From: Plantactinospora mayteni
GTDB taxonomy: Bacteria; Actinomycetota; Actinomycetes; Mycobacteriales; Micromonosporaceae
Assembly: GCF_016862935.1 (NCBI RefSeq)
Contig: NZ_BONX01000052.1
Span: 1-64,000, forward strand
DNA: 64,000 nt
Direction: 5' to 3'
The position numbers and the translations under genes are program-made. Shown here piece by piece: positions 30,957 through 52,148 of the stretch; positions within the stretch are counted from its first letter, which is position 1; every line of letters starts with the position of its first letter. The notes beneath the pieces are model-generated. The model saw nothing but the letters and a program-made list of their open reading frames with translations. It had not been told where the DNA came from and did not search any database.

Positions 30957-31871
30957 TCAGCCCTTCAGCGAACCGGCCGCCAGGCCGGCCATGATCTGCC
31001 GGTTCAGGAACAGGTACAGCACCAGCATGCCGAGCACGTTGAGGCTGATCGCGGCGAACAGCGGCCCGTACTCGGTGGCACCGTACTCGTCGCTGAAGTG
31101 CAGCAGCCCCACCTGGACCGTGGCCAGTTCCTCCCGGGTGGTGAAGGTGAGCGCGATGAGCAGGTCGTTCCAGACGCTGAAGAACTCGACCAGGGCGATG
31201 GTGACGATCGCGTTGCGCATCATCGGCACCCCGATGCGGAGAAACGCCCGGATCATCCCCGCCCCGTCGATCGTCGCCGACTCGAAGACCTCCCGCGGGA
31301 TCGCCCGGAAGTAGGCCGCCATCAGGAAGACCGTCAGCGGCAGGCCCATCACCGTGTACGTGATGATGAGCGGCCACAGCGTGTTGGTGAGGCCGATCTG
31401 GAAGTAGGCCGTGAAGAGCGGGACCAGGATCATCTGCCCCGGGACCATGATGCCGGCCAGGAAGACGAGCAGGACCGTGTTGCGTCCCTTCCAGACCAAC
31501 ACCTCCAGGGCGAACGCGGCGGCGATGCCGAGCACGATCATGAACGCCACCGACGGGACCGTGACCAGCACGCTGTTCAGCAGGTTCCGGGCGAGGTCGC
31601 CGCCGAGCCACGCCTCCTGGTAGTTGTCGAAGCTGAACTGCCGGGGCAGCGCCCATGTGGGTTCGGTGAAGAACTCGTTCTGCGTCTTGAACGAGCCGAG
31701 CACCAGCCAGACGATCGGATACACCTCGACGAGCACGAGCAGCGTGATGAGCAGACGTACCGGCAGCCGCCGCAGGGACCGGCCGGCCCGCCCGGGTCGC
31801 GCCGCCCGGCCCGGGCGCGACGGGTCGGGGCGCGTCGCGGTCGGCCTCGTTGCCGTGGACTGGATCGCCAT
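30957..31871 (-). CDS. Sugar ABC transporter permease, MalG type
   Basis: 304-residue inner-membrane permease of the carbohydrate uptake 1 class, with about six helices and the EAA-loop sequence EVFESATIDGAGMIRAFLRIGVPMM that contacts the ATPase. The basic N-terminal tail of about 35 residues is cytoplasmic. ATG 31871 starts three bases after the stop of the other permease gene. It works with the MalF-type permease (31875) and the lipoprotein at 32908. No ATP-binding gene is present in the operon, so a shared MsmK-type ATPase encoded elsewhere must energise it. Confidence 0.92.
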   Translation of the reverse strand: MAIQSTATRPTATRPDPSRPGRAARPGRAGRSLRRLPVRLLITLLVLVEVYPIVWLVLGSFKTQNEFFTEPTWALPRQFSFDNYQEAWLGGDLARNLLNSVLVTVPSVAFMIVLGIAAAFALEVLVWKGRNTVLLVFLAGIMVPGQMILVPLFTAYFQIGLTNTLWPLIITYTVMGLPLTVFLMAAYFRAIPREVFESATIDGAGMIRAFLRIGVPMMRNAIVTIALVEFFSVWNDLLIALTFTTREELATVQVGLLHFSDEYGATEYGPLFAAISLNVLGMLVLYLFLNRQIMAGLAAGSLKG

Positions 31872-31874: not shown

Positions 31875-32759
31875 TCAGCTCCTGGTGTTGTCGCGTCGGG
31901 CCGACCGGAACACCGCCAGCGTGACCAGTAGACACATGATGGTGAGCACGAACGCGATGGTGCTGCCGTAGCCGTAGTCCGCGTAGTCGAAGACGGTCCG
32001 GTACATGAGCAGCGTCAGCGGGGTGGTCTGGCCGCCCGGCCCGCCGTCGTTCAGGGCCAGCAGCGTGTCGAACACCTTGATGGTGTTGTTCAGGCTGAAG
32101 ATGACCGAGGAGAGCAGTACCGGCAGCGAGAGCGGCAGGACGACGAACCGCACCAGCCGCCAACCGGTCGCCCCCTCCATCCGGGCCGACTCCAGCACCT
32201 CGTCGGGGATGTCCAGCAGGCCGGCGTAGAGCAGGACGGCGAAGAACCCCATCGACCGCCACAGCTCCATGAGGATCGCCACGACGAAGGTGCCGCCCCC
32301 GGTGGCGAACCAGTCGATCGACGAGAGCCCGAACGCGTCGAGACCCGCGTTGACCGGACCGTCCTGCTGGCCGACCGCGAACAGGCTCTTGAACAGCAGG
32401 GCGACCGCCACTGTCGGCAGCACCGTCGGGAAGAACACCACGGTACGCACGAACGTCGACGCCTTGCGCAGCACGAAGACGTACATCAGCGCCAGGGCGT
32501 AGCCGAGGACTATCTGCCCGATGGAGAGCACGAGCGCGTACCGGAGGGTGAAGCCCAGCGCCGCGCGTGCCTGCGGGTCCCGGAAGAACTGGACGAAGTT
32601 GTCGAACCCGATGTACTCGTAGCCGCTGAGCGGATTGCCGGTGAAGAACGTCAGACCGAGCGACCAGAAGACCGGGACGAGCTTGACGCCGGTATAGACG
32701 AGCAACGCGGGCCCGAGCAGGATCAGGATCGCTTTTCTGTCGCCGAGGACGCTCTTCAC
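31875..32759 (-). CDS. Sugar ABC transporter permease, MalF type
   Basis: 294-residue permease with six helices and the EAA motif EVLESARMEGATGWRLVRFVVLP. I chose GTG 32759, behind GAAAGGAACGAT, because the open frame further upstream (to 32873) is Arg/Pro-rich and not membrane-like. The other permease follows almost without a gap. It forms the heterodimeric channel of the importer together with the MalG-type subunit. Confidence 0.9.
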   Translation of the reverse strand: MKSVLGDRKAILILLGPALLVYTGVKLVPVFWSLGLTFFTGNPLSGYEYIGFDNFVQFFRDPQARAALGFTLRYALVLSIGQIVLGYALALMYVFVLRKASTFVRTVVFFPTVLPTVAVALLFKSLFAVGQQDGPVNAGLDAFGLSSIDWFATGGGTFVVAILMELWRSMGFFAVLLYAGLLDIPDEVLESARMEGATGWRLVRFVVLPLSLPVLLSSVIFSLNNTIKVFDTLLALNDGGPGGQTTPLTLLMYRTVFDYADYGYGSTIAFVLTIMCLLVTLAVFRSARRDNTRS

Positions 32760-32907
32760 ATCGTTCCTTTCGAGGGGGCGACGCCGCCACCGAACGACAC
32801 GACGGCGTGCCGGCGGGTGGGGAGCGGACCAGACTCGATCTGGTTCCGCTCCCCCGCCCCCGTGGTCGGGCACGTCCGCATGTTCCGCCGCATGGTCGCG
32901 CCTGTGC

Positions 32908-34236
32908 TCAGCGTGCCTTTTCCAGGTCGGCCTGCAACATCGCCATGTACTGCTCCGGCGACTGCTGGCCGGTCAGCAACAGCGCCACGTTCTTCTGCGC
33001 GTCCGCCGTGGTCTTCGCGTCCCACAGCGCCTCGAACCAGAGGACGGTCTCGGTCGTCTTGCTGACGATCGCCTGCAACTCCGCCGTCAGCGGCGGAATG
33101 GCGTCCACCGGCTGGTTCAGCCGGAACCCGGAGATCACTCCCTGGTTCTTCAGCACGCTGCTGCCGTAGTTCTCGGCGATGCAACCGAGCCAGTCGCCGA
33201 CCTTGGGACCGTACGCCGCGGCGGACGTCGCGGTGGCCGCGCCCGCGTTGGCCGGCCACTGGCCACTGTTGCCCTTGCCGCCGTCGACGCCGGGGAACGG
33301 GATGAAGCCGACGTTCGACACACCGACCTTGTTCTGCGCCGGGTCGTTCAGGTTCGCCAGGAAGTACGAGCCGGTGTATGTCATCGCGGCCTGGCCGTTG
33401 AGGAACTGCGCGTTCGCGGCGTCGGCGGCCCGAGAGGTGACGCCCTCGCCGAACAGCCCCGCGCGGCCGAGATCGGCGATGGTCCGGGCCGCCGCCACGT
33501 ACTCCGGGTCGGTCAGTTTGGCTTGACCGTTCTGCACCTTCGTCATCGCGTCCGGTCCGACGGACCGGAAGATGTAGTTGCCGATCAGGCGGGTGATCGG
33601 CCAGCCCTGGGCGCCGGCCTGGGTGATCGGCACGACGCCGGCTGCCTTGAGCTTCTCGGCCACGGCGACGAACTCGTCCCAGGTCGTCGGCGGGGTGACG
33701 CCGTGCTGGGCGAAGAGCGTCTTGTTGTAGAAGATGCCCTCGATGTTGTACTGGAACGGGAGGGAAGCCATGTTGCCGCCGTATGCGGACTTCACCGTGG
33801 CCGCCGCCGCCGGGAGGATGTCGTCCCAGTGGCCGAGTTCCTTGAGCTTCGTCTCGTAGTCCACGGTCAGTTTGTTCTTGCCGAGGTCGCCGTCCGGCCT
33901 GACCTGCGCGGTACCCGCCACGAACATCACCGGGAGGGCTTTCTGGCTGGCCAGCAGGGTAACCTTCTGGACCACGTCGGACTGCGCCACTGTCTCGCTG
34001 CTCAACGGCAGGGCGGTGTTCTGCGTCTGGCACGCACCGCTCGACAGCGCGGTGAGCTCGTTCCGGATGATGGCGTTCTCGGCGGGGGTCAGCAGGCTGA
34101 ACGCGGTGGCACTGTCGCCGTCTTCGCCGCCATCCTCACCACCCGGGGCGCAGCCGGCGAGCACGAGCGTGGCCGCAGCACCCACCGCCGCAGACCGGAC
34201 AACCCACCCACGCCGCCTCGTCGCTGTAGGGGTCAC
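32908..34236 (-). CDS. Extracellular sugar-binding lipoprotein of an ABC importer
   Basis: 442 residues. A basic N-terminus (TRRRGWVVR), hydrophobic stretch and lipobox LAGC place the lipidated cysteine at residue 29, followed by a Gly/Asp/Glu-rich flexible linker. The body fits the family 1 solute-binding fold: FQYNIEGIFYNKTLFAQHGV, PPTTWDEFVAVAEKLK and GQAAMTYTGSYFLANL. It is anchored outside the membrane and captures the oligosaccharide or glycoside. It is the first gene of the minus-strand operon (binding protein, two permeases, aldo/keto reductase, beta-galactosidase), with LacI-type operators at 34266 and 34392 upstream. Confidence 0.92.
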   Translation of the reverse strand: MTPTATRRRGWVVRSAAVGAAATLVLAGCAPGGEDGGEDGDSATAFSLLTPAENAIIRNELTALSSGACQTQNTALPLSSETVAQSDVVQKVTLLASQKALPVMFVAGTAQVRPDGDLGKNKLTVDYETKLKELGHWDDILPAAAATVKSAYGGNMASLPFQYNIEGIFYNKTLFAQHGVTPPTTWDEFVAVAEKLKAAGVVPITQAGAQGWPITRLIGNYIFRSVGPDAMTKVQNGQAKLTDPEYVAAARTIADLGRAGLFGEGVTSRAADAANAQFLNGQAAMTYTGSYFLANLNDPAQNKVGVSNVGFIPFPGVDGGKGNSGQWPANAGAATATSAAAYGPKVGDWLGCIAENYGSSVLKNQGVISGFRLNQPVDAIPPLTAELQAIVSKTTETVLWFEALWDAKTTADAQKNVALLLTGQQSPEQYMAMLQADLEKAR

Positions 34237-34265: not shown

Positions 34266-34279
34266 TTGAAGCGTTTCAA
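34266..34279. promoter_or_regulatory. LacI-type operator, copy 3
   Basis: TTGAAGCGTTTCAA is the most symmetric of the five sites. It lies 29 bases upstream of the solute-binding protein start and 113 bases from copy 4. Two sites in one divergent region allow looping control of the import operon and the dehydrogenase operon. Confidence 0.75.
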
Positions 34280-34391: not shown

Positions 34392-34405
34392 TTGACACGT
34401 TTCAA
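34392..34405. promoter_or_regulatory. LacI-type operator, copy 4
   Basis: TTGACACGTTTCAA, identical to copies 2 and 5, lies 78 bases upstream of the short-chain dehydrogenase ATG at 34484. It would control the plus-strand pair at 34484-35659. Confidence 0.75.
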
Positions 34406-34483
34406 GCAACATGGAAGCATGGCACCCATGATCGAAAGTAACGCTGAGTGTCGAAACGACGATCCGGACGTCCGGGTCGCGCC

Positions 34484-35233
34484 ATGAGGTTGGCAGGCAA
34501 ACGGGCCGTCGTCACCGGCGCGGCCGGAGCACTGGGCGGCGTCATCTGCGAACACCTGGCGCGCGAAGGCGCCCGGGTCGCCGGCCTCGACCTCGATCCC
34601 GTCGGGCTCGACGCGGTGGCCGAGCGGGTCCGCACGCACGGGGTGGACGCCTGGACGGAAGCGGTCGACCTCACCGACTTCGAGGCCGTGCAGGCTGCGG
34701 CGGAGCGCCTGATCGCGCAGTGGGGCGGCGTCGACATCCTGGTCAACGGCGCGGGCGGCGGCGCCGTCAGCTTCTTCCACGAAATGACCTACCAGACCTG
34801 GTCGACCCAGGTCGACCGGAACCTGACAACGGTCTTCAACGTCACCCGGGCCGTGCTGCCCTCGATGCTCGCCCAGCGGCACGGGCGGATCGTCAACATC
34901 GCCTCGGTGGCGGCCATCGCGGGCGGGCGACTGGTCCGAGGCGCCACCGCCTACGCCGCGGCGAAGGCGGGCGTGGTCGGCCTGACCAAGGCGCTCGCGA
35001 TCGAGGTCGCCGAGCAGGGGGTGACCGTGAACTGCCTCGCCCCCGGCGCCCAGGCGACACCGGGCCGGGACAACGACACGACGGAACGGCGCGAGGCCCT
35101 GCTCAGCCAGATTCCCACCCGGCTGCTCGGCGAGCCGGACCATCTGGCCGAGACCGTGGTGTACCTGGCATCGCCGGCCACGGTGAACGTGACCGGGGTG
35201 ATCCTGCCGCTCGACGGCGGGCATTCGATCTGA
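34484..35233 (+). CDS. Short-chain dehydrogenase/reductase
   Basis: 249-residue classical SDR. The cofactor motif is TGAAGALGG, the structural motif NGAGGG replaces NNAG, and the catalytic set is Ser in NIASVAAIAGG with YAAAK. C-terminal ILPLDGGHSI is typical. ATG 34484 gives MRLAGKRAVVTGAAG; GTG 34448 is an alternative. The next gene, a carboxymuconolactone decarboxylase homologue, follows by 15 bases. Under the LacI-type operator at 34392, it is probably a sugar or sugar-acid dehydrogenase of this pathway. The substrate is not visible. Confidence 0.87.
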   Translation: MRLAGKRAVVTGAAGALGGVICEHLAREGARVAGLDLDPVGLDAVAERVRTHGVDAWTEAVDLTDFEAVQAAAERLIAQWGGVDILVNGAGGGAVSFFHEMTYQTWSTQVDRNLTTVFNVTRAVLPSMLAQRHGRIVNIASVAAIAGGRLVRGATAYAAAKAGVVGLTKALAIEVAEQGVTVNCLAPGAQATPGRDNDTTERREALLSQIPTRLLGEPDHLAETVVYLASPATVNVTGVILPLDGGHSI

Positions 35234-35248: not shown

Positions 35249-35659
35249 ATGACCGATCGGTTGGCCAAGGGCAAGCGCAGGTTCGAGGAACTGTACGGCG
35301 AGGGCAAGGCCGACGGGCTGATCGCCATGCAGACCGGCCTGGCCCAGGACCTCGCCCGCTACGGCATCGAGTTCAACTTCGGCGACGTGTACTCGCGCCC
35401 GGGCCTCACCCTGGCCCAGCGGGAGATGATCACGCTCGGCGTACTGGTCGCGATGGGCGGGCTCGAGCCGCAGCTACGCGGCCACACCCGGGGGGCGCTC
35501 AGGGCCGGGATGACGCCCACCGAAATCATCGAGACAGTGATCCACACGGTGCAGTACGTGGGCTTCCCCCGCGCGCTCAACGCCATTCGGGTGGTCACCG
35601 ACACGCTCGTCGAGAACGGCGCCGAGATCCCGGAGCCGTTGGGCCCGGACGCTGACTGA
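35249..35659 (+). CDS. Carboxymuconolactone decarboxylase family protein
   Basis: 136-residue all-helical AhpD-like/CMD-fold protein: LTLAQREMITLGVLVAMGGLE, HTRGALRAGMTPTEIIETVIH and YVGFPRALNAI. It lacks the AhpD CxxC pair, so a decarboxylase/isomerase-type role is more likely than peroxide reduction. ATG 35249 follows ACACAGGAGAAACCGC. It is co-transcribed with the SDR. In sugar-acid clusters such proteins often act near lactones or beta-keto acids; the role here is inferred. Confidence 0.85.
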   Translation: MTDRLAKGKRRFEELYGEGKADGLIAMQTGLAQDLARYGIEFNFGDVYSRPGLTLAQREMITLGVLVAMGGLEPQLRGHTRGALRAGMTPTEIIETVIHTVQYVGFPRALNAIRVVTDTLVENGAEIPEPLGPDAD

Positions 35660-35772: not shown

Positions 35773-36648
35773 CTATCCGACACTCGGCCGGGCGTCCCGG
35801 GTGGTGGTCCGGATCCGGTAGAGGCTCGTCGCCCCGGTGATGAACAGATCCCGCCCGTCCTCGCCCCCGAAACACAGGTTGGACACCGGCTCCGGCACGG
35901 GTACGGCTCCCAGTCGGGTGCCATCCGGCGCCAACACCTGCACCGAGTCGTGGCTCGACGTCCAGATCCGGCCCAGCTGGTCGACCCGGAGCCCGTCCGG
36001 GAATCCGGGCTGGATCTCGGCCAGTACCCGGCCGTTGTGGCAGTGCCCGTCGACCACGTCGTATGCCCGGATGTGCCGTCGGCCGTCCGGGTGCCGGGCG
36101 AGCGAACTGTCCGAGACGTAGAGCACCCGCTCGTCCGGGGCGAAGGCCAGCCCGTTCGGGTGCCACATGTCGGTGATCACGCTGGTGACCTCGCCTGTCC
36201 GCTCGTCGAACCGGAACACGTGGCACCCGTCGTACTCCTGGACCGCGGGACGGCCCTGTGCGTCGGAGACGATGCCGTAGGGCGGGTCGGTGAACCAGAT
36301 CGCGCCGTCGTCCGCGACGACGACGTCGTTCGGCGAGTTCAACCGCTTGCCGGCCCAGGAGTCGACGAGCGTGGTGAGCCCTGCGGCGGTCTCCCGCTCG
36401 ACCGCACGACGCCCGTGCGAGCACTGCACCACCGCGCCGCCACGGTCGAGCGTACGGCCGTTGGTGAACTCCACCCCGCTGCGGTAGACGCTGGTGTGCC
36501 CGGACTCTAGGTCGTACTCCAGGATCCGGTCGTTGGGGATGTCACTCCATCGGACCCGCCGGGTCGCCGGCAGCCAGACCGGCCCCTCACCCCACCTGGC
36601 GCCTGTGTACAACGTTTCAAGCTCGGCGCCCGCCTGGATGATCGCCAT
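35773..36648 (-). CDS. SMP-30/gluconolactonase-like protein
   Basis: 291-residue six-bladed propeller of the SMP-30 (regucalcin) lactonase family. Metal-site residues are in GARWGEGPVW (Glu), RLNSPNDVVVADDG (Asn, Asp) and WHPNGLAF. C-terminal blades include NLCFGGEDGRDLFITGATSLYRI, the usual family ending. ATG 36648 follows CTGAGGCG. The larger frame upstream overlaps the divergent kinase promoter and was rejected. It is divergent from the erythrulose-kinase-like gene across the operator at 36728. It probably hydrolyses the sugar lactone made by a C1 dehydrogenase to the free aldonic acid. Confidence 0.87.
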   Translation of the reverse strand: MAIIQAGAELETLYTGARWGEGPVWLPATRRVRWSDIPNDRILEYDLESGHTSVYRSGVEFTNGRTLDRGGAVVQCSHGRRAVERETAAGLTTLVDSWAGKRLNSPNDVVVADDGAIWFTDPPYGIVSDAQGRPAVQEYDGCHVFRFDERTGEVTSVITDMWHPNGLAFAPDERVLYVSDSSLARHPDGRRHIRAYDVVDGHCHNGRVLAEIQPGFPDGLRVDQLGRIWTSSHDSVQVLAPDGTRLGAVPVPEPVSNLCFGGEDGRDLFITGATSLYRIRTTTRDARPSVG

Positions 36649-36727: not shown

Positions 36728-36741
36728 TTGACACGTTTCAA
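36728..36741. promoter_or_regulatory. LacI-type operator, copy 5
   Basis: TTGACACGTTTCAA lies between the divergent SMP-30-like gene (start 36648) and the kinase gene (start 36764). It is identical to copies 2 and 4. Confidence 0.75.
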
Positions 36742-36763: not shown

Positions 36764-38548
36764 GTGGCGCGACTGGTCAACGAGTCGGCGGCCTTTGCCG
36801 ACGAGGCGGCGGGCGGCTTCGCCCGGGCGTTCTCACCGTGGGTGAGGCGGGTTCCAGGTGGCGTGGTCCGCCGCACCCCCGACCCTGCCCCGCGGGTGGC
36901 GCTCGTCATCGGCGGCGGGTCGGGGCACTACCCGGCCTTCGCGGGTCTCGTCGGAGCCGGGCTGGCGCACGGCGCGGCGATGGGTAACCTGTTCGCCGCC
37001 CCGTCGGCGCAGCAGGTGTACTCGGTCGCCCGCGCCACCGACCAGGGTCGGGGTGTGCTGCTCTGCTACGGCAACTACGCCGGCGACGTGCTCAACTTCG
37101 ACCTGGCGCAGGACCGGCTACGTGCCGAGGGTATCCACTGCGAGACGGTGGTCGTCACCGACGACATCTCCAGCGCCCGGCCGACGGAGCGGCGGCTGCG
37201 GCGCGGCATCGCCGGCGGTCTCGCGGTGTTCAAGGTGGCCGGTGCGGCAAGTGCCGAGGGCCGGGCACTGGACGAGGTGGCCCGGCTCGCCCGCCGGGCG
37301 AACGACCGGACCCGCTCGCTCGGCGTCGCGTTCGACGGTTGCACCCTGCCCGGCGCCGCAGCGCCGCTGTTCACCGTGCCGAACGGGCGGATGGCGGTGG
37401 GCATGGGCATCCACGGCGAGCCCGGCATCGACGAGAGGGACGTGCCGACCTCCGACGAACTGGCCCGGACCCTGGTCGGCTCGCTGCTCGCGGAGCCGCC
37501 TGACGACCTGCCCGAGGCCCGCGGGGCCCGGGCGGTGGCCATCCTCAACGGTCTGGGGTCGGTCAAGTACGAGGAACTCTTCGTGCTCTACGGCGCGGTC
37601 GCCGAACTGCTCGACCGGGCCGGCGTGGAGGTGGTCGAGCCCGAGGTGGGCGAGTTCGTCACCAGCTTCGACATGGCCGGGGTCTCGCTGACCCTCTGTT
37701 GGCTCGACGAGGAGCTCGACCGGCTGTGGCGGGCGTCGGCGAACACACCGGCCTTCCGCAAGAACGCCGCTGGCCCGTGCCTTGCGGCCCCCGCTTCCGC
37801 CGACGGTACGAGCAGCGTCGGTGGCGGCGTCACCGGGGCGAGTACCGCCGATGCCGGCGCCCCGGTTCAGGACGCCGTCGCGCCGGCCTCCGAGGCGGGC
37901 CGGCGGGCGGGACGCGCCGTGCGGGACGCGTTCGCCGCCGCCGCCCGCGGCATCGACGAGCAGGTCGACGAGCTCGGCCGCCTCGACGCGATCGTCGGCG
38001 ACGGCGACCACGGCATCGGCATGCAGCGTGGTGTACACGCCGCACTCGACGCTGCCGAGTTCGTCGCCGCCGGCGGCGGGGGCGCCGGCACGAGCCTGCG
38101 CCGGGCGGCGGACGCCTGGGCGGACCGCGCCGGCGGCACGTCCGGCGCGCTGTGGGGCGCGGCGTTGCGGGCGGCGGGGTCGGCGCTCGGCGACGACGGC
38201 GAGCCTGACGCCGCCGCCGCAGCAGCAGCGATCGAGGCAGCGACGACGGCGGTCCTCGCCGCCGGGCGGGCCGTGGTCGGGGACCGGACGATGGTCGACG
38301 CACTCGTACCGTTTCGCGACGCCTTCCGTGCCGCCAGTCCGGGTGGCATCCCGGCGGCGCTGGCGGCTGCGGTGCCGGTCACCGAGTCCGCCGCCCAGGC
38401 GACCGCCAACCTGCTGCCCCGGGTCGGCCGGGCGAGGTCACACGGCACGAGGAGCCTGGGCACGCCGGATGCCGGAGCCGTTTCACTGGCGCTGGTGCTC
38501 CGCGCGGTGCTCGACAGCGTAGGTCCCACCACCGGGGAGGCCGGATGA
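36764..38548 (+). CDS. lerK: DhaK-DhaL fusion kinase, probable L-erythrulose kinase
   Basis: 594 residues. The N-terminal DhaK domain keeps all three key positions of dihydroxyacetone kinase: His in [10 protein letters not shown] (about residue 55), Asp in [10 protein letters not shown], and the substrate-binding His in MGIHGEPG. A Gly/Ala-rich linker (about 345-385) leads to the ATP-binding DhaL domain, with metal-binding [13 protein letters not shown] and GGTSGALWG. Fused ATP-dependent kinases of this type include dihydroxyacetone, L-erythrulose and D-erythrulose kinases. The next two genes encode RpiB-like and triose-phosphate-isomerase-like proteins, which makes L-erythrulose kinase the best fit. 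GTG 36764 follows GAGGAGGTGCCACG. The stop overlaps the next ATG. Confidence 0.83.
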
Positions 38549-39006
38549 ACGTGGAGAAATGGCGGATCGTGATCGGCTCGGACGACGCCGGCTTCGAGTA
38601 CAAGGAGGTGCTCAAGCGGGATCTCGAGGCGAATGACCTGGTCGCCGAGGTCATCGATGTGGGCGTCGGCGCCGACGACACCACCGCGTACCCGCACGTC
38701 GCGGTTACCGCCGCCCAACTCGTCGCCGACGGGCGGGCCGACCGGGCGCTGCTGATCTGCGGCACCGGCCTCGGCGTGGCGATCGCCGCGAACAAGGTAC
38801 GCGGCATCCGTGCGGTCACCGCGCACGACTCCTACTCGGTGGAGCGCTCGGTGCTCAGCAACAACGCCCAGGTGCTCACCTTCGGCCAGCGGGTGGTTGG
38901 CCTGGAACTCGCCCGGCGCCTGGCCCGCGAGTGGCTCACCCACCAGTTCGACGAGTCGTCCGCCTCGGCGCAGAAGGTGGCCGTGCTCGACGGGTACGAG
39001 ACGTGA
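38545..39006 (+). CDS. derI: RpiB/LacA-family sugar-phosphate isomerase, probable D-erythrulose-4-phosphate isomerase
   Basis: 153-residue RpiB-fold isomerase: [34 protein letters not shown], and the catalytic-cysteine motif [19 protein letters not shown]. The fold interconverts aldose and ketose phosphates. Next to an erythrulose-type kinase and a TIM-like isomerase it fits the enzyme making D-erythrose 4-phosphate. It is coupled on both sides, starting on ATGA of the kinase and ending on GTGA with the next gene. A ribose-5-phosphate isomerase role is less likely in this context. Confidence 0.82.
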
Positions 39007-39776
39007 GCCGCACGGCCGCCGTCACGATCGGAGTGAGCCTGAAGCTCTACCTCGACGTCGCGACAACCCTTGGCTGGTGTGAACAGGTGCGTGAACTGGC
39101 CCGTAGCCGGCCTGCCGTGCAGAGGGGACACGTCCGGCTCTGGGTGGCACCGAGCCTCCCGGCGCTGCCGCTGGTCGCCGAGCGGGTACGCGACTCGGGG
39201 CTCGGCGTCGGCGCGCAGGACCTGTTCTGGGCGGACCGTGGCGCCTACACCGGCGCGGTGAGCGGGGCGGACCTGCGGGACCTGGGCTGCCGCTACGTGG
39301 TGATCGGGCATGCCGAGCGCCGGCGGTACTTCGGCGAGGACGAGAACGCGGTCGCCCGCAAGACCGCCGCGGCACTGCGCAACAACCTGATCCCGGTACT
39401 CTGCGTCGGGGAGGCCGAGCCGGGGTCGGTGACGCAGGCCGCGCGGCAGTGCCTCCGCCAACTCGATGCGGCGCTCGGCCCGGAGAGCGGGCCCGGCGAG
39501 ATCGTCGTCGCCTACGAGCCGCACTGGGCCATCGGCGCCAGCGAACCCGCCGGGCCGGCGCATATCGGCGCCGTCTGTACCGCGCTACGGGACCGGATCG
39601 CCGCCGACCCGAAGCTCGCCGGCAGCGCGGTGATCTACGGCGGGAGCGCCGGCCCTGGGCTGCTCACCCGGCTCGGCAATCAGGTCGACGGCCTGTTCCT
39701 GGGCCGGTTCGCGCACGACCCGCGGCGGCTCGGCGAGGTCCTCGACGAGGCGGAACGGATGGCGTTGCCGGCATGA
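39003..39776 (+). CDS. lerI: Triose-phosphate isomerase-like protein, probable L-erythrulose-1-phosphate isomerase
   Basis: 257-residue TIM barrel with the catalytic residues of the superfamily: Lys in GVSLKLYLD, His in [14 protein letters not shown], Glu in [10 protein letters not shown], and the phosphate-binding IYGGSAGPG. The canonical NWK and GHSERR are changed to SLK and GHAERR, as in TIM-like isomerases of tetrulose phosphates rather than glycolytic enzymes. GTG 39003 overlaps the preceding stop (GTGA). Its own stop overlaps a 27-codon repeat-derived frame leading into the next gene. Expected reaction: L-erythrulose 1-phosphate to D-erythrulose 4-phosphate. Confidence 0.82.
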
Positions 39777-39859
39777 GCGAGCGTAGCGAGCGAATCAGCC
39801 AGCTCAGGGCGGACAAGCCTCATGGCGGTACGGAGCGAAGCGGAGTGCCGGCATGAGCG
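39766..39859. repeat. SERSERIS-type coding repeat inserted at an ATGA junction
   Basis: TGCCGGCATGAGCG occurs at 39766-39779 and 39846-39859, exactly 80 bases apart. Between them lies a GAGCGTAGCGAGCGAATCA / GGAGCGAAGCGGAG repeat, a short dispersed element I know from actinobacterial gene starts. The insert forms a 27-codon frame (39773-39856) that overlaps the preceding stop and the next start by ATGA at both ends, so translational coupling is preserved. Confidence 0.8.
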
Positions 39860-40650
39860 GCATCGGCCTCGGCACGTACGCGTTCTTCTGGCAGCACTCG
39901 GCCCGCGCGACGGAACCGCTCTCGCTCGAACAGATGGTCGACCGGGCCATCGGGCTGGGCGCCGAGGTGTTCCAGATCTGTGACTACCCGGCCGTCGAGC
40001 GGTTCGACGAGCAGCGGCTGGACGCGCTCGCCGCCCGAGCCCGGGCCGGCGGTCTGGCCCTGGAACTCGGCACCCGTGGGCTCGCCGTGGCGCACCTGGA
40101 GAACTACCTCGGCCTGGCGCGGCGGCTGGGGGCGAGGCTGGTCCGGACCATGCTCACCACAGCGACGTCGCGGCCCACCCTGGCCGAGGCCGCGCGACTG
40201 CTCGCCGAGGCGCTCCCCGGGTACGAGCGGGCCGGCGTGACGGTCGCCCTGGAGACGTACGAGCAGGTGCCGTCGGCGGACCTGGTGGCGCTGGTGGACC
40301 GGGTGGGCAGTCGCAACCTCGGCATCTGCCTCGATCCGGCGAACTGCGTGGCAGCGCTGGAGCACCCGAACCAGGTGATCGACACCGTCGCGGAACACGT
40401 CGTCAACCTGCACATGAAGGATTTCCGGTTCACCCGGGACGAGAGCTGGGTCGGCTTCCGGCTGGCCAGCTGCCCGCTCGGCGAGGGCCTGCTCGACCTG
40501 GATTACCTGTTCGCCCGGGTACGCCCCGCCGAGCGGGGGATCAGCCGGATCATCGAGCACTGGCTGCCCTGGCAGGGCGACGAGGTCAGCACGTTCTCGC
40601 TCGAGAACCGGTGGACAGAACAGGGAATGACCTACCTAAGGAGGAAATGA
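39853..40650 (+). CDS. oiaC: Sugar phosphate isomerase/epimerase-fold protein, probable 3-oxo-isoapionate decarboxylase
   Basis: 265-residue xylose-isomerase-like TIM barrel (GLGTYAFFWQHS, VFQICDYPAVE, VALETYEQVPSADLVALVD, LGICLDPANCVAALEHP, NLHMKDFRF, IIEHWLPWQGDE). Metal-binding Glu, Asp, His and Glu positions of the fold are present. The fold covers isomerases, epimerases and some decarboxylases. It sits between erythrulose-phosphate enzymes and an ApnO-like gene, matching the D-apionate pathway, whose decarboxylase OiaC belongs to this fold and makes L-erythrulose. That assignment is from context and memory of the pathway; the fold itself is sure. It ends on an ATGA overlap. Confidence 0.72.
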   Translation: MSGIGLGTYAFFWQHSARATEPLSLEQMVDRAIGLGAEVFQICDYPAVERFDEQRLDALAARARAGGLALELGTRGLAVAHLENYLGLARRLGARLVRTMLTTATSRPTLAEAARLLAEALPGYERAGVTVALETYEQVPSADLVALVDRVGSRNLGICLDPANCVAALEHPNQVIDTVAEHVVNLHMKDFRFTRDESWVGFRLASCPLGEGLLDLDYLFARVRPAERGISRIIEHWLPWQGDEVSTFSLENRWTEQGMTYLRRK

Positions 40651-40652
40651 TC

Positions 40653-41507
40653 ATGGCAAGTCCTCTGGAGATCGCCCTCGTCGGCGCTGGCGGCAAGATG
40701 GGCATGCGGATCTCGGACAACCTGCAGCGCACCGGCCACGTGGTCCATTACAGCGAGAACTCCCCCGCTGCCCAGCGGCGCGTCGTCGAGGCGGGACGCC
40801 AACTCAGCGACCCGGATACCGCGGTGCGCGACGCCGACGTGGTGATCCTCGCCGTTCCGGACATCGCCCTCGGCGTGGTGTCCCAGGCGGTCGTCCCACT
40901 GCTGCGCCCGGACGCCATCGTGCTCACCCTCGACCCGGCCGCCGCGTACGCCGGCGTGCTGCACAAGCGGGACGACGTCCACTACGCGGTCGCCCACCCC
41001 TGCCACCCGTCGGTCTTCCTGGAGCGCAGCACGCCCGAGGAGTACGCGGACAGCTTCGGCGGGGTCGCCGCGCCGCAGGACGTGGTGGCCGCGTTCGAGA
41101 GCGACGCCCCGGCCCGGCGGGAGATCGCCGAAACGATCATCCGGATCATGTACGGACCCGTCATCGACGTGCACTGGGTCACCGTCAAGCAGCTCGCCGT
41201 GCTCGAGCCCACGCTGGTCGAGACCGTTGCCTGCATGGTCGGCGACCTGCTGCGGGAGGCATTGGCGGAGACCGTGAACACGGTGGGCGTGCCCGAGCCG
41301 GCGGCCAGAGCCATGTTGTACGGACACGTCCAGGTGGCGCTGAGCAACACGCTGCGCGGCGCGAACCCGTTCTCGGACGCGTGCCGCATCGCGATGGACT
41401 ACGGTCACGAGACCATTATCCGCACCGACTGGAAGAAGATCTTCGATGACAGCGAACTCGACCGGGTGATCGCCCGCATGCTCCGGCTAGAGTCCGTCGA
41501 GTCGTAA
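40653..41507 (+). CDS. apnO: 6-phosphogluconate dehydrogenase-like oxidoreductase, probable D-apionate oxidoisomerase
   Basis: 284 residues. The Rossmann motif is VGAGGKMGMRISDN, with VVILAVPDIALG after it. The helical C-terminal half (HWVTVKQLAVLEPTLVETVA; MDYGHETIIRTDWKKIFDD) matches the uncommon PGDH_C-type domain rather than ordinary 6PGDH. D-apionate oxidoisomerase ApnO, as I recall, belongs to this group and converts D-apionate to 3-oxo-isoapionate with NAD. ATG 40653 lies 8 bases after AAGGAGG; ATG 40647 is too close to it. It is the last enzyme gene of the operon starting at 36764, with the regulator gene 58 bases downstream. Confidence 0.72.
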   Translation: MASPLEIALVGAGGKMGMRISDNLQRTGHVVHYSENSPAAQRRVVEAGRQLSDPDTAVRDADVVILAVPDIALGVVSQAVVPLLRPDAIVLTLDPAAAYAGVLHKRDDVHYAVAHPCHPSVFLERSTPEEYADSFGGVAAPQDVVAAFESDAPARREIAETIIRIMYGPVIDVHWVTVKQLAVLEPTLVETVACMVGDLLREALAETVNTVGVPEPAARAMLYGHVQVALSNTLRGANPFSDACRIAMDYGHETIIRTDWKKIFDDSELDRVIARMLRLESVES

Positions 41508-41565: not shown

Positions 41566-42588
41566 GTGAGGTTCGAAGTGCCGAGGGTCGGAATCCGGGA
41601 GGTCGCCGCGCTAGCCGACGTCTCGATGGGCACCGTGTCCCACTTCCTCAACCATCCGACGAGGGTATCCGCGGAGAAGGCGAAGCGCATCCAGGAGGCC
41701 ATCGAGAAGCTGGGCTTCGTACGCAACAACGCCGGTCGGCAGCTTCGCCTGGGACGCAGCAGCACCGTCGCGTACATCGTGCCCGACGTCAGTAACCCAT
41801 TCTTCGCCACCATCGCCGAGGGGGTCGAGCGCCGGGCGGCACAGGCCGGGCTCTCCGTCTTCCTGGCGAACTCCGGCGGTGACCGGGCCCGCGAGGACTC
41901 CTATCTGGCGCTGTTCGAGGAGCAGGGGGTCCGGGGCATGCTGGTCGCCTCGCACGACCCCATCGAGGACCGGCTCGCCGCCGCCCGGACCCGGGGTACG
42001 CCGTCGGTGCTGGTCGGCCGGCGGGCCAACTCGGCCGCCCAGCCGTCGATCTCGATCGATGACGTGTCCGGCGGGTACCTGGCCGCCCGGCACCTCATCG
42101 AGATCGGCTGCCGCCGGATCGCGTTCGTCGGCGGCCCGCTCGGCATTCAGCAGATCGCCGACCGGCTGCAGGGCGCGAGCAACGCGGTCCGCGAGTCGGG
42201 CACGGCGATGCTCGAGATCATCGACATCGAACACCGGATCATCTCGGTCGGCCACAAGGTGGGCGCGGAGTTGTCCGGACGCCCGGCCGAGCACCGCCCG
42301 GACGGCATCTTCGCCGTGAACGACCTGCTCGGCATCGGGCTGGTGCAGACCCTGGTGGGCAACGGTGTACGGGTACCCGAGGATATCGCCGTGGTCGGAT
42401 ACGACGACATCGAGTACGCGGAGAACTCGCTGGTCCCCCTCACCTCGGTGCGGCCCCCGCACGAGGATTTCGGGATCGCCGCCGTGGACCTGCTGCTCAC
42501 TGTTATCGGCGACGCTCCGCTGCCCGCCGAGACCCAACTGGTCTTCGCCCCCGATCTGGTGGTGCGGCGCAGCACGACGCGCGGCTGA
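41566..42588 (+). CDS. LacI-family transcriptional regulator of the catabolic island
   Basis: 340-residue repressor. The N-terminal helix-turn-helix is GIREVAALADVSMGTVSHFL, with hinge helix EKAKRIQEAIEKLGFVRNNAGRQL. The periplasmic-binding-like effector domain follows (STVAYIVPDVSNPFFATIAEGVE; GYDDIEYAENSLVPLTSVRPP). GTG 41566 follows GACGAAGGGTGTT. It ends the enzyme operon and may be co-transcribed with it. Five operators of LacI type (CGTTTCAA right half, TTGACA or TTGAAG left half) occur in the window, all in the three divergent regions of this island. It is the only LacI-type gene here. The effector is probably a sugar or sugar acid of the pathway. Confidence 0.9.
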   Translation: MRFEVPRVGIREVAALADVSMGTVSHFLNHPTRVSAEKAKRIQEAIEKLGFVRNNAGRQLRLGRSSTVAYIVPDVSNPFFATIAEGVERRAAQAGLSVFLANSGGDRAREDSYLALFEEQGVRGMLVASHDPIEDRLAAARTRGTPSVLVGRRANSAAQPSISIDDVSGGYLAARHLIEIGCRRIAFVGGPLGIQQIADRLQGASNAVRESGTAMLEIIDIEHRIISVGHKVGAELSGRPAEHRPDGIFAVNDLLGIGLVQTLVGNGVRVPEDIAVVGYDDIEYAENSLVPLTSVRPPHEDFGIAAVDLLLTVIGDAPLPAETQLVFAPDLVVRRSTTRG

Positions 42589-42839: not shown

Positions 42840-44222
42840 ATGAACAACACTGGCCTGGTCCGGGTGACCGTCGCGGCGCCGGCCCGGCGGATCGACCTGG
42901 CCCTGCCCGAGCGGTCGCCGCTCGCCGAGCTGCTGCCCGCCCTGTTGACGCACGCCGGCGAGTGCCTCGCCGACGCCGGGGTGGGTGCCGGCGGGTGGGC
43001 GCTGCGCCGGGTTGACGGGACCGCGCTGGAACCGGCCCGTACGCTGGCTGGGCATCGAATACGGGACGGCGAGGTGCTGTACCTGACGCACGCCCGTACC
43101 GACTGGCCCGAGCTGGAGTACGACGACCTGGTTGACGCGATCGCCACCGGCTCGGCCCGGCTCGGCGGCGCCTGGGGCCCTGGGCACACCCGGGCCACCG
43201 GTCTCGGCGTGGGCGCGCTGACCGCCCTGCTCTGCCTGGTCGCGGTGTTACGGGCGGGACCGCCGTGGTCCGGTCCGGCATGGTGGGCACTCGGCACGGC
43301 CGGCCTGCTGCTCGCCGTCGGTGTCATGCTGGCCCGGGCGGCCGGCGACACCGGGGGCGGCGTGGTCAGCGCCCTGGTCGCGTTGCCGCTGGCCGTCGCC
43401 GGCGGCGGCCTCGCCCTGGCCGGTGACCGCGCGCTGACCGCGCTCGGCGCGCCGCATCTGCTGACCGCCGGAGCCGCGCTGCTCCTCGCCTCGATCGTCG
43501 GCCTGCTCGGTGTGGTGGACCGGGCCGCGCTGTTCGTCGCCGGCACCACGGCCGGACTCTTCGGCGTCATCGGCGGCTGGCTCACCACCCTGGAGGCGCT
43601 GGAGGCGCACGAGACCGCCGCGCTCGTGGCGGGCCTCGGTCTGGCGTTCTCACCGGTACTCGCCCCGCTGTCGATCCGGCTGAGCCGGGTACCGATGCCG
43701 GTCCTCCCCCGCGTCGCCGCCGACCTGGTACGCGACGACCCGCAGCCACCCCGGGCCGCGGTGTACGCCGCCGTACTGCGAGCGGACAGCCTGCTCACCG
43801 GCATGGTGGCCGGCCTGGCGCTGGCCGCCGCCGTCTGCCAGGTGCTACTGGCACGCGCCGGCGGCACCGCCGCGACGATCCTGGTGACCGTCCTGACGAT
43901 CGGCTTCCTGCTCCGCGCCCGGCTGTATCCGATCGGGCGGCAACGACTGCCGCTGCTGCTCGCCGGGCTGACCGGGGCGGTGTCCCTGGCCACCGGGCCG
44001 CTGATGGCCGACCGGTCGGACCTGCTCGCCGTGACGGGACCGGTCCTGCTTCTGGTCGGTGGGCTCGTCGCGCTGCTCGCCGTGGTGTACAGCGTCCGCC
44101 GGCCCGGCCCGTACCTGGGACGGTACGCGGAACTGCTGGAGGTGCTGGTGGTGTTGGCGGTCCTGCCGGTGGTCTGCTCCGTGCTCGGCCTGTACGGCTA
44201 CGTACGCGGATTGGGCGGCTGA
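42840..44222 (+). CDS. eccD: Type VII secretion membrane protein EccD
   Basis: 460 residues. The N-terminal 85 residues are a ubiquitin-like YukD domain (VRVTVAAPARRIDLALPER; DGEVLYLTHARTDWPELEYDDLVDAI), followed by about 11 hydrophobic helices to the end (VLGLYGYVRG). EccD forms the channel-like vestibule of the ESX inner-membrane complex with EccB, EccC and usually EccE. ATG 42840 lies 6 bases after GGAG. The eccB ATG follows the stop by one base. No eccE follows in the window. Confidence 0.92.
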   Translation: MNNTGLVRVTVAAPARRIDLALPERSPLAELLPALLTHAGECLADAGVGAGGWALRRVDGTALEPARTLAGHRIRDGEVLYLTHARTDWPELEYDDLVDAIATGSARLGGAWGPGHTRATGLGVGALTALLCLVAVLRAGPPWSGPAWWALGTAGLLLAVGVMLARAAGDTGGGVVSALVALPLAVAGGGLALAGDRALTALGAPHLLTAGAALLLASIVGLLGVVDRAALFVAGTTAGLFGVIGGWLTTLEALEAHETAALVAGLGLAFSPVLAPLSIRLSRVPMPVLPRVAADLVRDDPQPPRAAVYAAVLRADSLLTGMVAGLALAAAVCQVLLARAGGTAATILVTVLTIGFLLRARLYPIGRQRLPLLLAGLTGAVSLATGPLMADRSDLLAVTGPVLLLVGGLVALLAVVYSVRRPGPYLGRYAELLEVLVVLAVLPVVCSVLGLYGYVRGLGG

Positions 44223-44223
44223 C

Positions 44224-45648
44224 ATGGCGTCCAAGCGCGACCAGTTGCACGCGTACCAGTTTCTGGTGCAGCGGGTGATCTCGGGCCTGGTGACCAGGGA
44301 GAGCGACCCGGAGCAGCCTCCGTTCCGCCGGCCGGTCTACGCCGCGTACGGTGGCATCGCCGTCGCGGTCATCGCGCTGGCCGTCGTCGGCATCTACGGG
44401 ATCATCGTGCCCGGCGGCGCCAAGAGCTGGCGCGGCGGCGATGCGGTGGTGGTCGAGAAGGAGACCGGGACCCGCTACGTCTACCTGGACGGCCGGCTGC
44501 ATCCGGTCGCCAACTACACCTCGGCCCTGCTTGCACTCGAGCGGCACGCGCAGACCCGGGTGGTGTCGCGCAACTCGCTGGTCGGGGTGACCCGGGGGCC
44601 GCGCATCGGCATTCCGGACGCGCCCGACGCCCTGCCCGCGCCGAAGCGGTTGCTCTCCGGGGAGTGGACGTTCTGCTCGCAGCCGGGCCGGGACCGGACT
44701 GGAGCGGCCGTGTGGGAGTCGGTGCTGATGGTCGGGCACCGGCCCGCGGCGGGCGACCCGCTGGCGGAGCGGGCGCTGCTGGTCGCGGTCGCGGGGTCCG
44801 GCGAGCGTCACCTGGTGTGGCAGGGATACCGACACGCGATCGACAGGGCGGACACGGTCGCCGTGGAGGTGGCGCTGCGCGCCGGACCGGCGATCCCGGT
44901 CAATCCGGCGGTGCTCGACGTGCTGCCGGCCGGCCGACCAATCACGCCGATCGTGGTGCGGGACGTCGGCAAGCCATCCCAGGCGGTGCCCGGCCGGAAG
45001 GACATCCGGGCCGGCCAGCTGTTGGTGGCGACGAGTTCCGGGGGCGTGCAGCACTATCTCGCCGAGGTTGGCCAGTTACGGCCGATCAGCGAGTTGCAGT
45101 ACGACATCCAGCTCGCCTCCCGCAGGACCGCCGCCGCGTACCCCCGCAAGAAGCCGGCCGGCGTGTCGCTCAGTCTGCTGGAGGCGGCCGGGGCCAAGCA
45201 TGCGCCCGCCGTACCCGTCGCTGCTGGTGACCCGCCGGTCCTGCCGCCGGAGTTCGCGGCCGGCGCGACGTCGACCACCATGTGCCTGGTGTTCGCCCCG
45301 CGTGGGCCGGTGCCGGCCGTGCTGCTGGACCCGGCGATGCCGAGCGTCGACCCGATGCGGCAGACCCCGGGCAGCACCGAAGGAGGTACTCGGCTCGCCG
45401 ACCGGGTGCTGGTGCCGGGCGGCGGGGCCGCGGTCGTGGAGTCGATGCCCGCCCCGGACGCTCCGGCGGGCACCCTGCTGCTGGTCACAGACCTCGGCAT
45501 CGCCCACCCGCTGGCCGACCCGAAGGTCCTTGAGGTGTTGGGCTACCCCGGGGTACGCCCGGTCCGCATGCCGGCCGGAGTGGTCAGCCGCCTACGGATG
45601 GGCACCGCCCTGAGTCACGACGGCGCGATGCGCCACAGCCAGACCTGA
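44224..45648 (+). CDS. eccB: Type VII secretion protein EccB
   Basis: 474 residues. The N-terminal cytoplasmic part SKRDQLHAYQFLVQRVISGLV is the EccB signature. One membrane helix (AAYGGIAVAVIALAVVGIYG) follows at about residues 39-60, then a large extracytoplasmic domain with repeats and two cysteines (WTFCSQPG, TTMCLVF) that form the conserved disulfide. EccB belongs to the ESX core complex. It is directly downstream of eccD and ends before a strong bidirectional terminator. Confidence 0.92.
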   Translation: MASKRDQLHAYQFLVQRVISGLVTRESDPEQPPFRRPVYAAYGGIAVAVIALAVVGIYGIIVPGGAKSWRGGDAVVVEKETGTRYVYLDGRLHPVANYTSALLALERHAQTRVVSRNSLVGVTRGPRIGIPDAPDALPAPKRLLSGEWTFCSQPGRDRTGAAVWESVLMVGHRPAAGDPLAERALLVAVAGSGERHLVWQGYRHAIDRADTVAVEVALRAGPAIPVNPAVLDVLPAGRPITPIVVRDVGKPSQAVPGRKDIRAGQLLVATSSGGVQHYLAEVGQLRPISELQYDIQLASRRTAAAYPRKKPAGVSLSLLEAAGAKHAPAVPVAAGDPPVLPPEFAAGATSTTMCLVFAPRGPVPAVLLDPAMPSVDPMRQTPGSTEGGTRLADRVLVPGGGAAVVESMPAPDAPAGTLLLVTDLGIAHPLADPKVLEVLGYPGVRPVRMPAGVVSRLRMGTALSHDGAMRHSQT

Positions 45649-45680
45649 GCTGGTCCCGGCCGACAGTGGGCCAGCCGGAA

Positions 45681-45712
45681 GCGGCCCCGGGAGAGATTTC
45701 TCCCGGGGCCGC
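45681..45712. terminator. Strong bidirectional stem-loop terminator
   Basis: GCGGCCCCGGGAGA at 45681-45694 pairs perfectly with 45699-45712 (14 bases, 4-base GATT loop), between the convergent ends of eccB (plus) and the proline-rich protein gene (minus). Confidence 0.85.
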
Positions 45713-45734
45713 GACGCTTCGGTGACGATCGGGT

Positions 45735-47150
45735 TCAGTGGCGGTGGATCCGCGCCGGCGGGCGGGACTCCTCGGTACGCCGCTCGCTGACCTGCCACAT
45801 GTCCTCGTCGATCAGCTCCACGGTGGCCGGCGCGTCCGTCTTTTGGATCAGTCGGGGCCTGGGCGGGATCGCGTGCGGGCTGCCCTTGCCCGCCTTACCG
45901 CTCAGCAGCGCGGGCATGCCGGGAGTGGGATTCCGGGGTCCATGGCCCCGGCCGGCCCCCGCTGGGCGGGCCGCGCCCGACCCCGGCCCCCCGCCACCAC
46001 CCACGCCCGCCCCGGCTCCGGCCATCGGCGGCATCATGGGCGGCATCATCGGCACACCGCCGGCCGGGGTCGAAGTCCCGGCCAGGCTGGCGGGCGGCAG
46101 CGTTGGCGGCGGGCCGCTCGGCGCGACCTGCGCCGGCCCGCCGACCGGGGTGGCCGCCTGCGCGATCGAGGCGGCACCCAACCCGGCACCGCCACCGAGG
46201 CCACCGCCGCCCAGGCCGACCCCCGGGATGCGGGCGCCGCCGCCGAGATTCGCGGCGGGCACCCGTCCGTTTCCGCTGGTACCGCCGATCGGCGGGATCA
46301 CCGGCGGGAGACCCGGACCGATGCCGGGGCCACCGCCACCCGGCGGGGTAAGTCCACCGGGACCCATTCCGCCAGGGGGCGGGGCGCCGGTGGACGGCAG
46401 GGTGGGTGTGGACGGCTGGCCGGAGAGCGACGGCCCTGTCCCGCCGCCGGGCGGTGCTCCGCCCCCGCCGGGGGGTGCCCCGCCGCCGGGCGCCGTCGCC
46501 TCGCCGCCCTGGGGTACGTCGGACATGCCGTTGGGGACGCCGCCCTCCGGGACGCCGGGATCGGGGGCCGAGAGTGGGCCCCCGCCAGGGTCCTCAATCC
46601 GGTGGAGGTACCACTCGTTACCCTGCACGGCGTCTTGCACCGCACCGGTCGCCTCGGTGAAAAGGTTGCCGAGCGCCTTCATCCTGTCCTTGGCGGCCTG
46701 GAGGTATGCCTCGATCAGACTCACGACGTTGGCGCGAGCGAAGAATACGTTTTCATCAGCCACGTTCGCATCGATAAGACCGTCGGCCGTTTTGAGCTGT
46801 TCGATCAGCGGTTTGGCCGCCTCGAACTGCTGCTGGACGAAGCCAAGGGTGGGGGCGATATCGTTGCCGGCGTTCATGATCTTGTGCCATGGCGCCGCGC
46901 TGTTGAGGTACTCCCTCCGTCCCTCGATCGTTGTCGCAGCACTGTCGGCCACTTTTAGCATCTTGGCGCCGTTCGGATCGTCCCACGCGGCGTTCAGCGC
47001 AGCGGTCTCGTCCCTTATCGACTTCAATGATTGACCAAGTTCGATGGAAGCTCGAGCCCACACGTCAACCTGGTCGAGAATGGCCTGCGCGTGATTCTTC
47101 TCGGCCGTCATCTGGTCCACCAGCTTCTGGAACTGTGCGGCGTAGTCCAT
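45735..47150 (-). CDS. ESX-associated WXG100-like protein with long Gly/Pro-rich tail
   Basis: 471 residues. The first 170 or so are helical and resemble WXG100/LXG secretion domains (YAAQFQKLVDQMTAEKNHAQ; NAAWDDPNGAKML). About 230 residues of Pro/Gly-rich repeats follow (GGGAPPGGGGAPPGGG; VPMMPPMMPPM). A short conserved-looking C-terminus (VELIDEDMWQVSERR) closes the protein. It is likely an ESX substrate or wall-spanning accessory. ATG 47150 follows AAAGGGGGAATGAC. It is the last gene of the minus-strand run eccC, 47163 gene, this gene. I do not know a named family for the whole protein. Confidence 0.7.
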   Translation of the reverse strand: MDYAAQFQKLVDQMTAEKNHAQAILDQVDVWARASIELGQSLKSIRDETAALNAAWDDPNGAKMLKVADSAATTIEGRREYLNSAAPWHKIMNAGNDIAPTLGFVQQQFEAAKPLIEQLKTADGLIDANVADENVFFARANVVSLIEAYLQAAKDRMKALGNLFTEATGAVQDAVQGNEWYLHRIEDPGGGPLSAPDPGVPEGGVPNGMSDVPQGGEATAPGGGAPPGGGGAPPGGGTGPSLSGQPSTPTLPSTGAPPPGGMGPGGLTPPGGGGPGIGPGLPPVIPPIGGTSGNGRVPAANLGGGARIPGVGLGGGGLGGGAGLGAASIAQAATPVGGPAQVAPSGPPPTLPPASLAGTSTPAGGVPMMPPMMPPMAGAGAGVGGGGGPGSGAARPAGAGRGHGPRNPTPGMPALLSGKAGKGSPHAIPPRPRLIQKTDAPATVELIDEDMWQVSERRTEESRPPARIHRH

Positions 47151-47162
47151 GTCATTCCCCCT

Positions 47163-47489: not shown

Positions 47490-47574
47490 CTGGCCTCCCG
47501 GTCCACTGGTTCAATGTCGTTGGTTCAGTTCAGCATTCGCCTCGGCGGGCAGAGTCCGCGACGACCGCAAGCGG

Positions 47575-52119: not shown

Positions 52120-52148
52120 CAGTCGGAACCTAGGAGAGGACTCGGCAC

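Follow-up and report, generated by a model that had tools for sequence, protein, structure and literature searches.

A putative D-apionate catabolic operon within a LacI-linked gene island of Plantactinospora mayteni

Which carbon source is degraded by a compact run of five enzyme genes in the actinomycete Plantactinospora mayteni, and in concert with which neighbours, is the question raised by the locus described here. The sequence analysed (positions 1–64,000 of contig NZ_BONX01000052.1, assembly GCF_016862935.1; genome of 9.84 Mb) is referred to as the window, that is, the whole stretch of 64,000 nucleotides. Within it, the five genes span 36764–41507 on the forward strand, and a LacI-family gene (41566–42588) comes next. 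The original prediction had assigned them to a route from D-apionate to D-erythrose 4-phosphate, an assignment that is supported by family membership and by conserved gene context. We consider it probable (roughly 0.8) that the five genes encode D-apionate catabolism and are controlled by the LacI protein together with an importer, glycosidases, and a cassette of a short-chain dehydrogenase/reductase (SDR), a CMD-family protein and an SMP-30-type protein. The operon and its likely regulator are composed as follows:

36764–38548, + strand: LerK-like L-erythrulose kinase (Dak1 and Dak2 domains, PRK14479 subfamily; GAGGAGG precedes the GTG start codon)
38545–39006, + strand: DerI-like isomerase (RpiB family, LacAB_rpiB domain)
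~38994–39776, + strand: LerI-like isomerase (divergent triose-phosphate isomerase (TIM) family; start between 38931 and 39003)
39853–40650, + strand: OiaC-like 3-oxo-isoapionate decarboxylase (AP_endonuc_2 TIM barrel)
40653–41507, + strand: ApnO-like D-apionate oxidoisomerase (PGDH_C and NAD-binding domains; the reading frame can open at 40611)
41566–42588, + strand: LacI-family regulator, by its family matches the likely repressor of the island

All five open reading frames (ORFs) exist where they had been placed, as judged from the ORF list, a coding-like third-position GC content (0.86–0.93) and the expected Pfam domains. For the TIM gene, its presence was borne out, but not its start, which had been put at 39003 and is set here, with some uncertainty, at ~38994. 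The distances from the end of one gene to the start of the next (−3, −12, 77 and 3 bases, in order) and the domains place the families of all five pathway enzymes in a single operon.

In the known D-apionate pathway, oxidative rearrangement is followed by decarboxylation, phosphorylation and two isomerizations. By analogy, ApnO would oxidize and rearrange D-apionate to 3-oxo-isoapionate, a β-keto acid that OiaC would decarboxylate to L-erythrulose. LerK would then phosphorylate L-erythrulose, and the TIM-family LerI and the RpiB-family DerI would isomerize the product to D-erythrose 4-phosphate, which would join the pentose phosphate pathway. Each of these reactions is predicted from sequence. 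The core represents another instance of a type of pathway already published, and the upstream gene set and the regulon make it a variant. A D-apiose oxidative pathway with a 3-oxo-isoapionate decarboxylase was reportedly described by Carter and colleagues in 2018, in a study cited by PMC13001218; it comprises the same ApnO, OiaC, LerK, LerI and DerI-type genes, all of which stand in one operon in the window, whereas the island shows SDR, CMD, SMP-30 and LacI genes instead of the Gfo/Idh/MocA dehydrogenase and the lactonase ApnL.

The assignment leans most on the product of the 40653 gene. Its best solved relatives are 5t57 (named a semialdehyde dehydrogenase NAD-binding protein), which we take to be an ApnO, and 3c24; it belongs to a PGDH_C family whose members adjoin relatives of ApnL, and its weak matches to ketol-acid reductoisomerases fit a reaction that both oxidizes and rearranges its substrate. 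The gene neighbourhood of ApnO was compared in 97 loci, all selected via their ApnO gene: 17 from genomes of the same family and phylum (leaving out G383, where a PGDH_C match of 34 positions lies at a contig end) and 80 from named genomes. As the latter are the best 80 of at least 556 confirmed matches, close relatives are over-represented. The presence of genes was scored by tblastn with bit-score thresholds set by hand, because earlier gene calls had been crude, some apparently picking antisense ORFs (c9, c10 and c13 were taken as such). A relative of the NCBIfam D-apionate lactonase ApnL is present in 31 of the 97 loci; the sole copy scanned against the model (from L078) scored 228.6 bits (E 1.4e-67; curated cut-off 750). 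Relatives of a Pfam Apiosidase gene occur in six loci and those of a Gfo/Idh/MocA dehydrogenase, for which one such gene served as the query, in two. On pSymB of S. meliloti, a PGDH_C gene and a Gfo/Idh/MocA gene are ~4.4 kb apart, with genes for a ribose-type transporter between them; the Gfo/Idh/MocA gene stands next to an ApnL relative. Among plasmid records, ApnO was matched in 251 and ApnL in 236, with similar lists of hosts.

Six Microbacterium loci (L069, L081, L093, L100, L105 and L118) combine ApnO with a relative of ApnL and a gene of the apiosidase family, and three of them (L081, L100 and L118) also carry a relative of the α-L-rhamnosidase of the window. A different assemblage is found in L083 (5643–17512), from an Acidimicrobiaceae bin, where ApnO is accompanied by a weak ApnL relative (~100 bits, below the hand-set threshold and therefore uncounted), a 468-residue protein without Pfam match, an importer, an amidohydrolase and a UPF0261/TBST pair ~7 kb from ApnO; OiaC, LerK, TIM and RpiB had no match there, and the ApnO product may be put to another use.

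Of the 97 loci, 72 contain the complete five-gene set, which argues against a chance grouping. Among the 25 loci without the full set, 11 are stretches shorter than 12.1 kb, three (L040–L042) carry a distant ApnO, and L074, L083 and L086 have ApnO without OiaC; in the remainder, some genes lie outside the stretch, are absent or fall under the thresholds. In L033, the TIM match (11272–11978) is in two pieces, for which sequencing error, decay or alignment ends may be responsible. The locus is patchily distributed, as PGDH_C (PF16896) is rare: among 200 genomes of the family it was matched in 12, and among 396 of the phylum in 8 (own genome included in both), while none of six listed genomes of the same genus had it. 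Of three relatives labelled as the same class, the ApnO tree places G444 among Streptomyces and G455 and G514 among Microbacterium.

The distant ApnO proteins of L040–L042 (37–38% identical) stem from another part of the phylum. They adjoin a gene for an SBD_N/NBD_C kinase, a domain pair that presumably corresponds to DUF1537, and a RuBisCO-like gene (domains scanned in L042, which also has a BKACE gene). These neighbours match a kinase route which, according to PMC11747546, consists of ApnO, 3-oxoisoapionate kinase and 3-oxoisoapionate-4-phosphate decarboxylase and is listed for an apiose-growing Rhodobacteraceae strain. The ApnO family is common to both routes, whereas phosphorylation precedes decarboxylation in the kinase route; its genes stand beside the distant ApnO of L040–L042, not in the window.

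As for the remaining enzymes, the residues E134, D161, H187 and E235 of OiaC, which we take to be the metal-ligand positions expected for this fold, are invariant in all nine aligned relatives. As a divergent paralogue, the TIM gene of the operon scores 173 bits, versus 313 bits for the separate, typical triose-phosphate isomerase (TPI) of the genome, and a profile built from ten orthologues found 3s6d first (210.8 bits). The genome has three RpiB-family genes, the operon copy included. The erythritol/L-erythrulose catabolism of Brucella and Yarrowia employs the same types of enzyme (dihydroxyacetone kinase, TpiA2 and RpiB) to convert L-erythrulose to erythrose 4-phosphate (PMC5992420) and, unlike the operon described here, starts from erythritol or erythrulose. 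It is not known to involve ApnO or OiaC. The roles of the kinase, TIM and RpiB proteins are likely: their families allow them, and both their place in the operon and the precedent in Yarrowia and Brucella (PMC5992420) speak for them.

The operon does not stand alone. The original prediction had named an aldo/keto reductase (AKR), an SDR, an SMP-30-type lactonase, an ABC importer, a rhamnosidase and a β-galactosidase as its surroundings, and Pfam scans located all of them. PF09370 is the domain named TBST. The upstream island, including its operator-like sites, reads:

20306–22903, − strand: GH78-type α-L-rhamnosidase, probably cytoplasmic (signal peptide not evident by eye at the likely start, 22903)
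22976–22989: LacI-type operator-like site in the rhamnosidase/UPF0261 intergenic region, departing from the perfect palindrome at two positions
23020–23033: LacI-type operator-like site before the UPF0261 gene
23055–24341, + strand: UPF0261 protein (Pfam), corresponding to the N-terminal half of Tm-1-like proteins of plants (PMC5028733)
24343–25167, + strand: PF09370 TIM-barrel protein (Pfam), corresponding to the TBST half of Tm-1-like proteins of plants (PMC5028733)
25224–25649 and 25650–26051, + strand: two small cupin genes (Pfam)
26048–26908, + strand: extended SDR of the epimerase family (weakly similar to uronate dehydrogenase and Azf)
26979–30053, − strand: GH2 β-galactosidase-type enzyme (likely start 30053; no signal peptide by eye)
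30065–30955, − strand: AKR (Pfam), another candidate sugar dehydrogenase
30957–31871, − strand: ABC importer permease (Pfam)
31875–32873, − strand: ABC importer permease (Pfam)
32908–34236, − strand: ABC importer solute-binding lipoprotein (Pfam; lipoprotein look of the N-terminus)
34266–34279: LacI-type operator-like site before the importer operon
34392–34405: LacI-type operator-like site before the SDR gene
34448–35233, + strand: SDR oxidoreductase (Pfam), candidate D-apiose dehydrogenase (34484 is a possible alternative start)
35249–35659, + strand: CMD-family protein (Pfam)
35773–36648, − strand: SMP-30/gluconolactonase-like protein (Pfam), candidate apionolactonase (likely start 36648)
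36728–36741: LacI-type operator-like site TTGACACGTTTCAA between the SMP-30 and LerK genes

That these genes share a regulon, as had been proposed, is strongly supported by the palindromes common to the divergent promoters of the island (rhamnosidase/UPF0261, importer/SDR and SMP-30/LerK). The motif TTGAAACGTTTCAA was derived by reading two of the promoters, a first palindrome scan having listed a single operator (~34264). With up to two mismatches allowed, it occurs at five sites in the window (0.00 expected from 100 shuffles). The tighter pattern TTGANRCGTTTCAA has four exact sites in the entire genome, all of them in the window (23020, 34266, 34392 and 36728); one mismatch adds the site at 22976 and four sites on other contigs, and a reversed-pattern control gave none and two sites, respectively. 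Three further genomes (G121, G103 and G031) have the island genes in the same order with sites at the matching promoters, and G055 and G075 also carry operator-like sites. In the other fetched loci, 13 such sites (up to two mismatches) were counted in 1.68 Mb, five of them in L035, which has several island genes. A single LacI regulon covering the operon, the importer, the glycosidases and the SDR-CMD-SMP-30 cassette is thereby supported: the LacI protein would bind the sites, probably as a repressor that is released by a sugar ligand.

What this regulon would deliver to ApnO is less certain. Standing in for ApsD and ApnL, the customary enzymes, the SDR-CMD-SMP-30 cassette could oxidize imported apiose and open the resulting lactone, yielding D-apionate; this step is the least certain, with the odds about even. 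SDR, AKR and extended SDR make three candidate sugar dehydrogenases in the regulon. The last (26048) might be a uronate dehydrogenase, but the similarity is weak and confined to part of the protein. Five of the 97 loci, drawn from two parts of the ApnO tree, have SDR, CMD and SMP-30 relatives together. Since these loci had been chosen for ApnO, a search for CMD across the family genomes, aimed independently of ApnO, is the better test: relatives of at least 75% identity were found in seven of the 200 genomes (own included), every one of which belongs to the 12 ApnO-positive genomes (hypergeometric 3.5e-10, ignoring kinship and counting the own genome), on a different contig from ApnO in two of the seven; weaker relatives (up to 47%) raise the genomes with a match to 50. 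The CMD matches of G031 and G103 were counted with one internal stop each, which may reflect sequencing error, decay or alignment ends. The SMP-30 and CMD genes of a Pantoea plasmid were rejected as support, being poorly related to those of the window (SMP-30 23% identical over 184 residues; no CMD match at E 1e-3). A mutual exclusion of ApnL and SMP-30 plus CMD was likewise considered, with no locus of the 97 having both, but 31 and 5 loci are too few for it; in L043, an SMP-30 relative occurs together with ApnL.

The wider claim of a complete apiose island aimed at rhamnogalacturonan II (RG-II) came out weaker, as neither an ApnL relative nor an apiosidase was found in the genome and the glycosidases look cytoplasmic. 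The importer comprises a binding protein and two permeases, with no ATPase among the proteins scanned. Given glycosidases without signal peptide and a lipoprotein-like binding protein, import of a small glycoside and its cleavage inside the cell are expected, rather than an attack on polymeric RG-II.

Several observations weigh against D-apionate as the substrate, or against the island as its source. The common partners of the operon elsewhere differ: of the 97 loci, 76 have a GntR gene, 58 an MFS gene and 10 a relative of this LacI gene. A search of the genome for ApnL, in which a single Microbacterium relative was the query and no positive control was included, gave no match, and apiosidase PF13204 had no match there either (a control matched in 2 of 14 genomes). 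None of the NCBIfam matches of the kinase and the decarboxylase is named LerK or OiaC. The TIM profile found 11ef, named an L-erythrulose-1-phosphate isomerase, second (175.3 bits), level with the best TPI (174.5 bits). The RpiB protein scores 209 bits (cut-off 168) with the model for actinobacterial ribose-5-phosphate isomerase and 145 bits (cut-off 240) with that for D-erythrulose-4-phosphate isomerase, both from NCBIfam. The OiaC profile matches the L-ribulose-5-phosphate 3-epimerase UlaE at 22.6 bits, and NCBIfam epimerase models of the UlaE kind match seven or eight of nine OiaC relatives, at E 2e-5 or worse and far under their cut-offs. Finally, in G055 and G075, both draft assemblies, the LacI island ends operator-RpiB-LacI, without LerK, TIM, OiaC and ApnO.

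The epimerase matches bear on kinships that the original prediction had named as damaging to it, of the 39853 product to tagatose or xylulose epimerases and of the 40653 product to dehydrogenases for other substrates. What was found is different: the former matches only weakly, namely uncharacterized TIM barrels, Art22 and UlaE, with no tagatose epimerase among its matches, and the latter is a member of the ApnO family. UlaE-type enzymes also act on L-xylulose 5-phosphate, so that a remote kinship of OiaC to xylulose epimerases does exist, as it does for the whole fold.

The truncated islands of G055 and G075, which keep RpiB without the other four genes, suggest a use of the island beyond a self-contained apionate operon. 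These genomes may have lost a redundant part while keeping RpiB, or RpiB may serve a purpose of its own there. Another sugar of plant glycosides, for example, a rhamnosyl-galactoside, might be the true substrate of the LacI island, processed through UPF0261/TBST, the cupins and the epimerase, with the apionate operon merely fused to it in this lineage. G115, which has UPF0261-TBST-cupin genes with operator-like sites yet is not among the ApnO-positive genomes, points the same way. We nonetheless regard this as rather unlikely: G055 and G075 hold all five genes, with an ApnO of another clade, together on a different contig (no such operator in the fetched stretch); all family genomes with a close CMD relative have ApnO; and relatives of the rhamnosidase and the epimerase stand beside ApnO, ApnL and apiosidase genes in Microbacterium L081 and L118. 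Alternatively, SDR and SMP-30 could act as the dehydrogenase and rhamnonolactonase of oxidative L-rhamnose use on rhamnose freed by GH78. Both families suit that pathway and GH78 lies within the regulon, but the Pfam matches of the island (the genome at large was not searched) include neither an enolase-type dehydratase nor a recognized aldolase, and the trio recurs with ApnO in two parts of its tree, albeit among loci chosen for ApnO; we judge this improbable.

Even less is to be said for an operon serving tetritol or L-erythrulose use, or a branched acid other than D-apionate, although LerK, LerI and DerI alone would suit L-erythrulose and the specificity of ApnO cannot be read from its sequence: OiaC and ApnO are conserved parts of the operon, and their relatives adjoin those of ApnL and apiosidase. 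In many of the MFS-bearing loci, neither a dehydrogenase nor a lactonase is seen, as if D-apionate itself were taken up; there, the conserved transporter gene (e.g., in L048, L055, L079 and L092) often directly precedes LerK, accompanied by a divergent GntR gene. A Gfo/Idh/MocA D-apiose dehydrogenase was not among the Pfam matches of the island, the rest of the genome not having been searched for it.

The most notable item in the locus is the UPF0261/TBST pair, which lies (23055–25167) behind the same LacI-type operator-like motif as the apionate operon. The UPF0261 domain was called uncharacterized in a 2016 paper (PMC5028733). The PF09370 protein has relatives of at least 85% identity in seven of the 200 family genomes, six of which belong to the 12 ApnO-positive ones. 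In G115, the sites at the UPF0261-TBST-cupin genes have two mismatches; its neighbourhood was discarded as a clue to the function of the pair, as five of six neighbours scanned have domains without evident sugar role and one has none. It is conceivable, though on balance unlikely, that the island is a new apioside-use system in which SDR or AKR, SMP-30 and CMD, none of them homologous to ApsD and ApnL, replace these two, GH2 or GH78, families without a known role in apiose release, replaces the apiosidase, and UPF0261/TBST acts in the same carbohydrate pathway.

Downstream of LacI, the window (42840–62112) contains type VII secretion genes (EccD, EccB, an FtsK/SpoIIIE ATPase and a subtilase) and a gene whose 2461-residue product has a WXG100-like domain at its N-terminus.

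The locus ties a rare-sugar pathway of actinomycetes, its D-apionate operon spread patchily across many of their families, to a defined regulon with operator-like sites. Because the regulon is defined, candidate genes can be named, both for the substitutes of ApsD, ApnL and apiosidase and for the Tm-1-like pair. If UPF0261/TBST indeed acts in the same carbohydrate pathway, the orphan family of the plant virus-resistance protein Tm-1 would gain a metabolic context.

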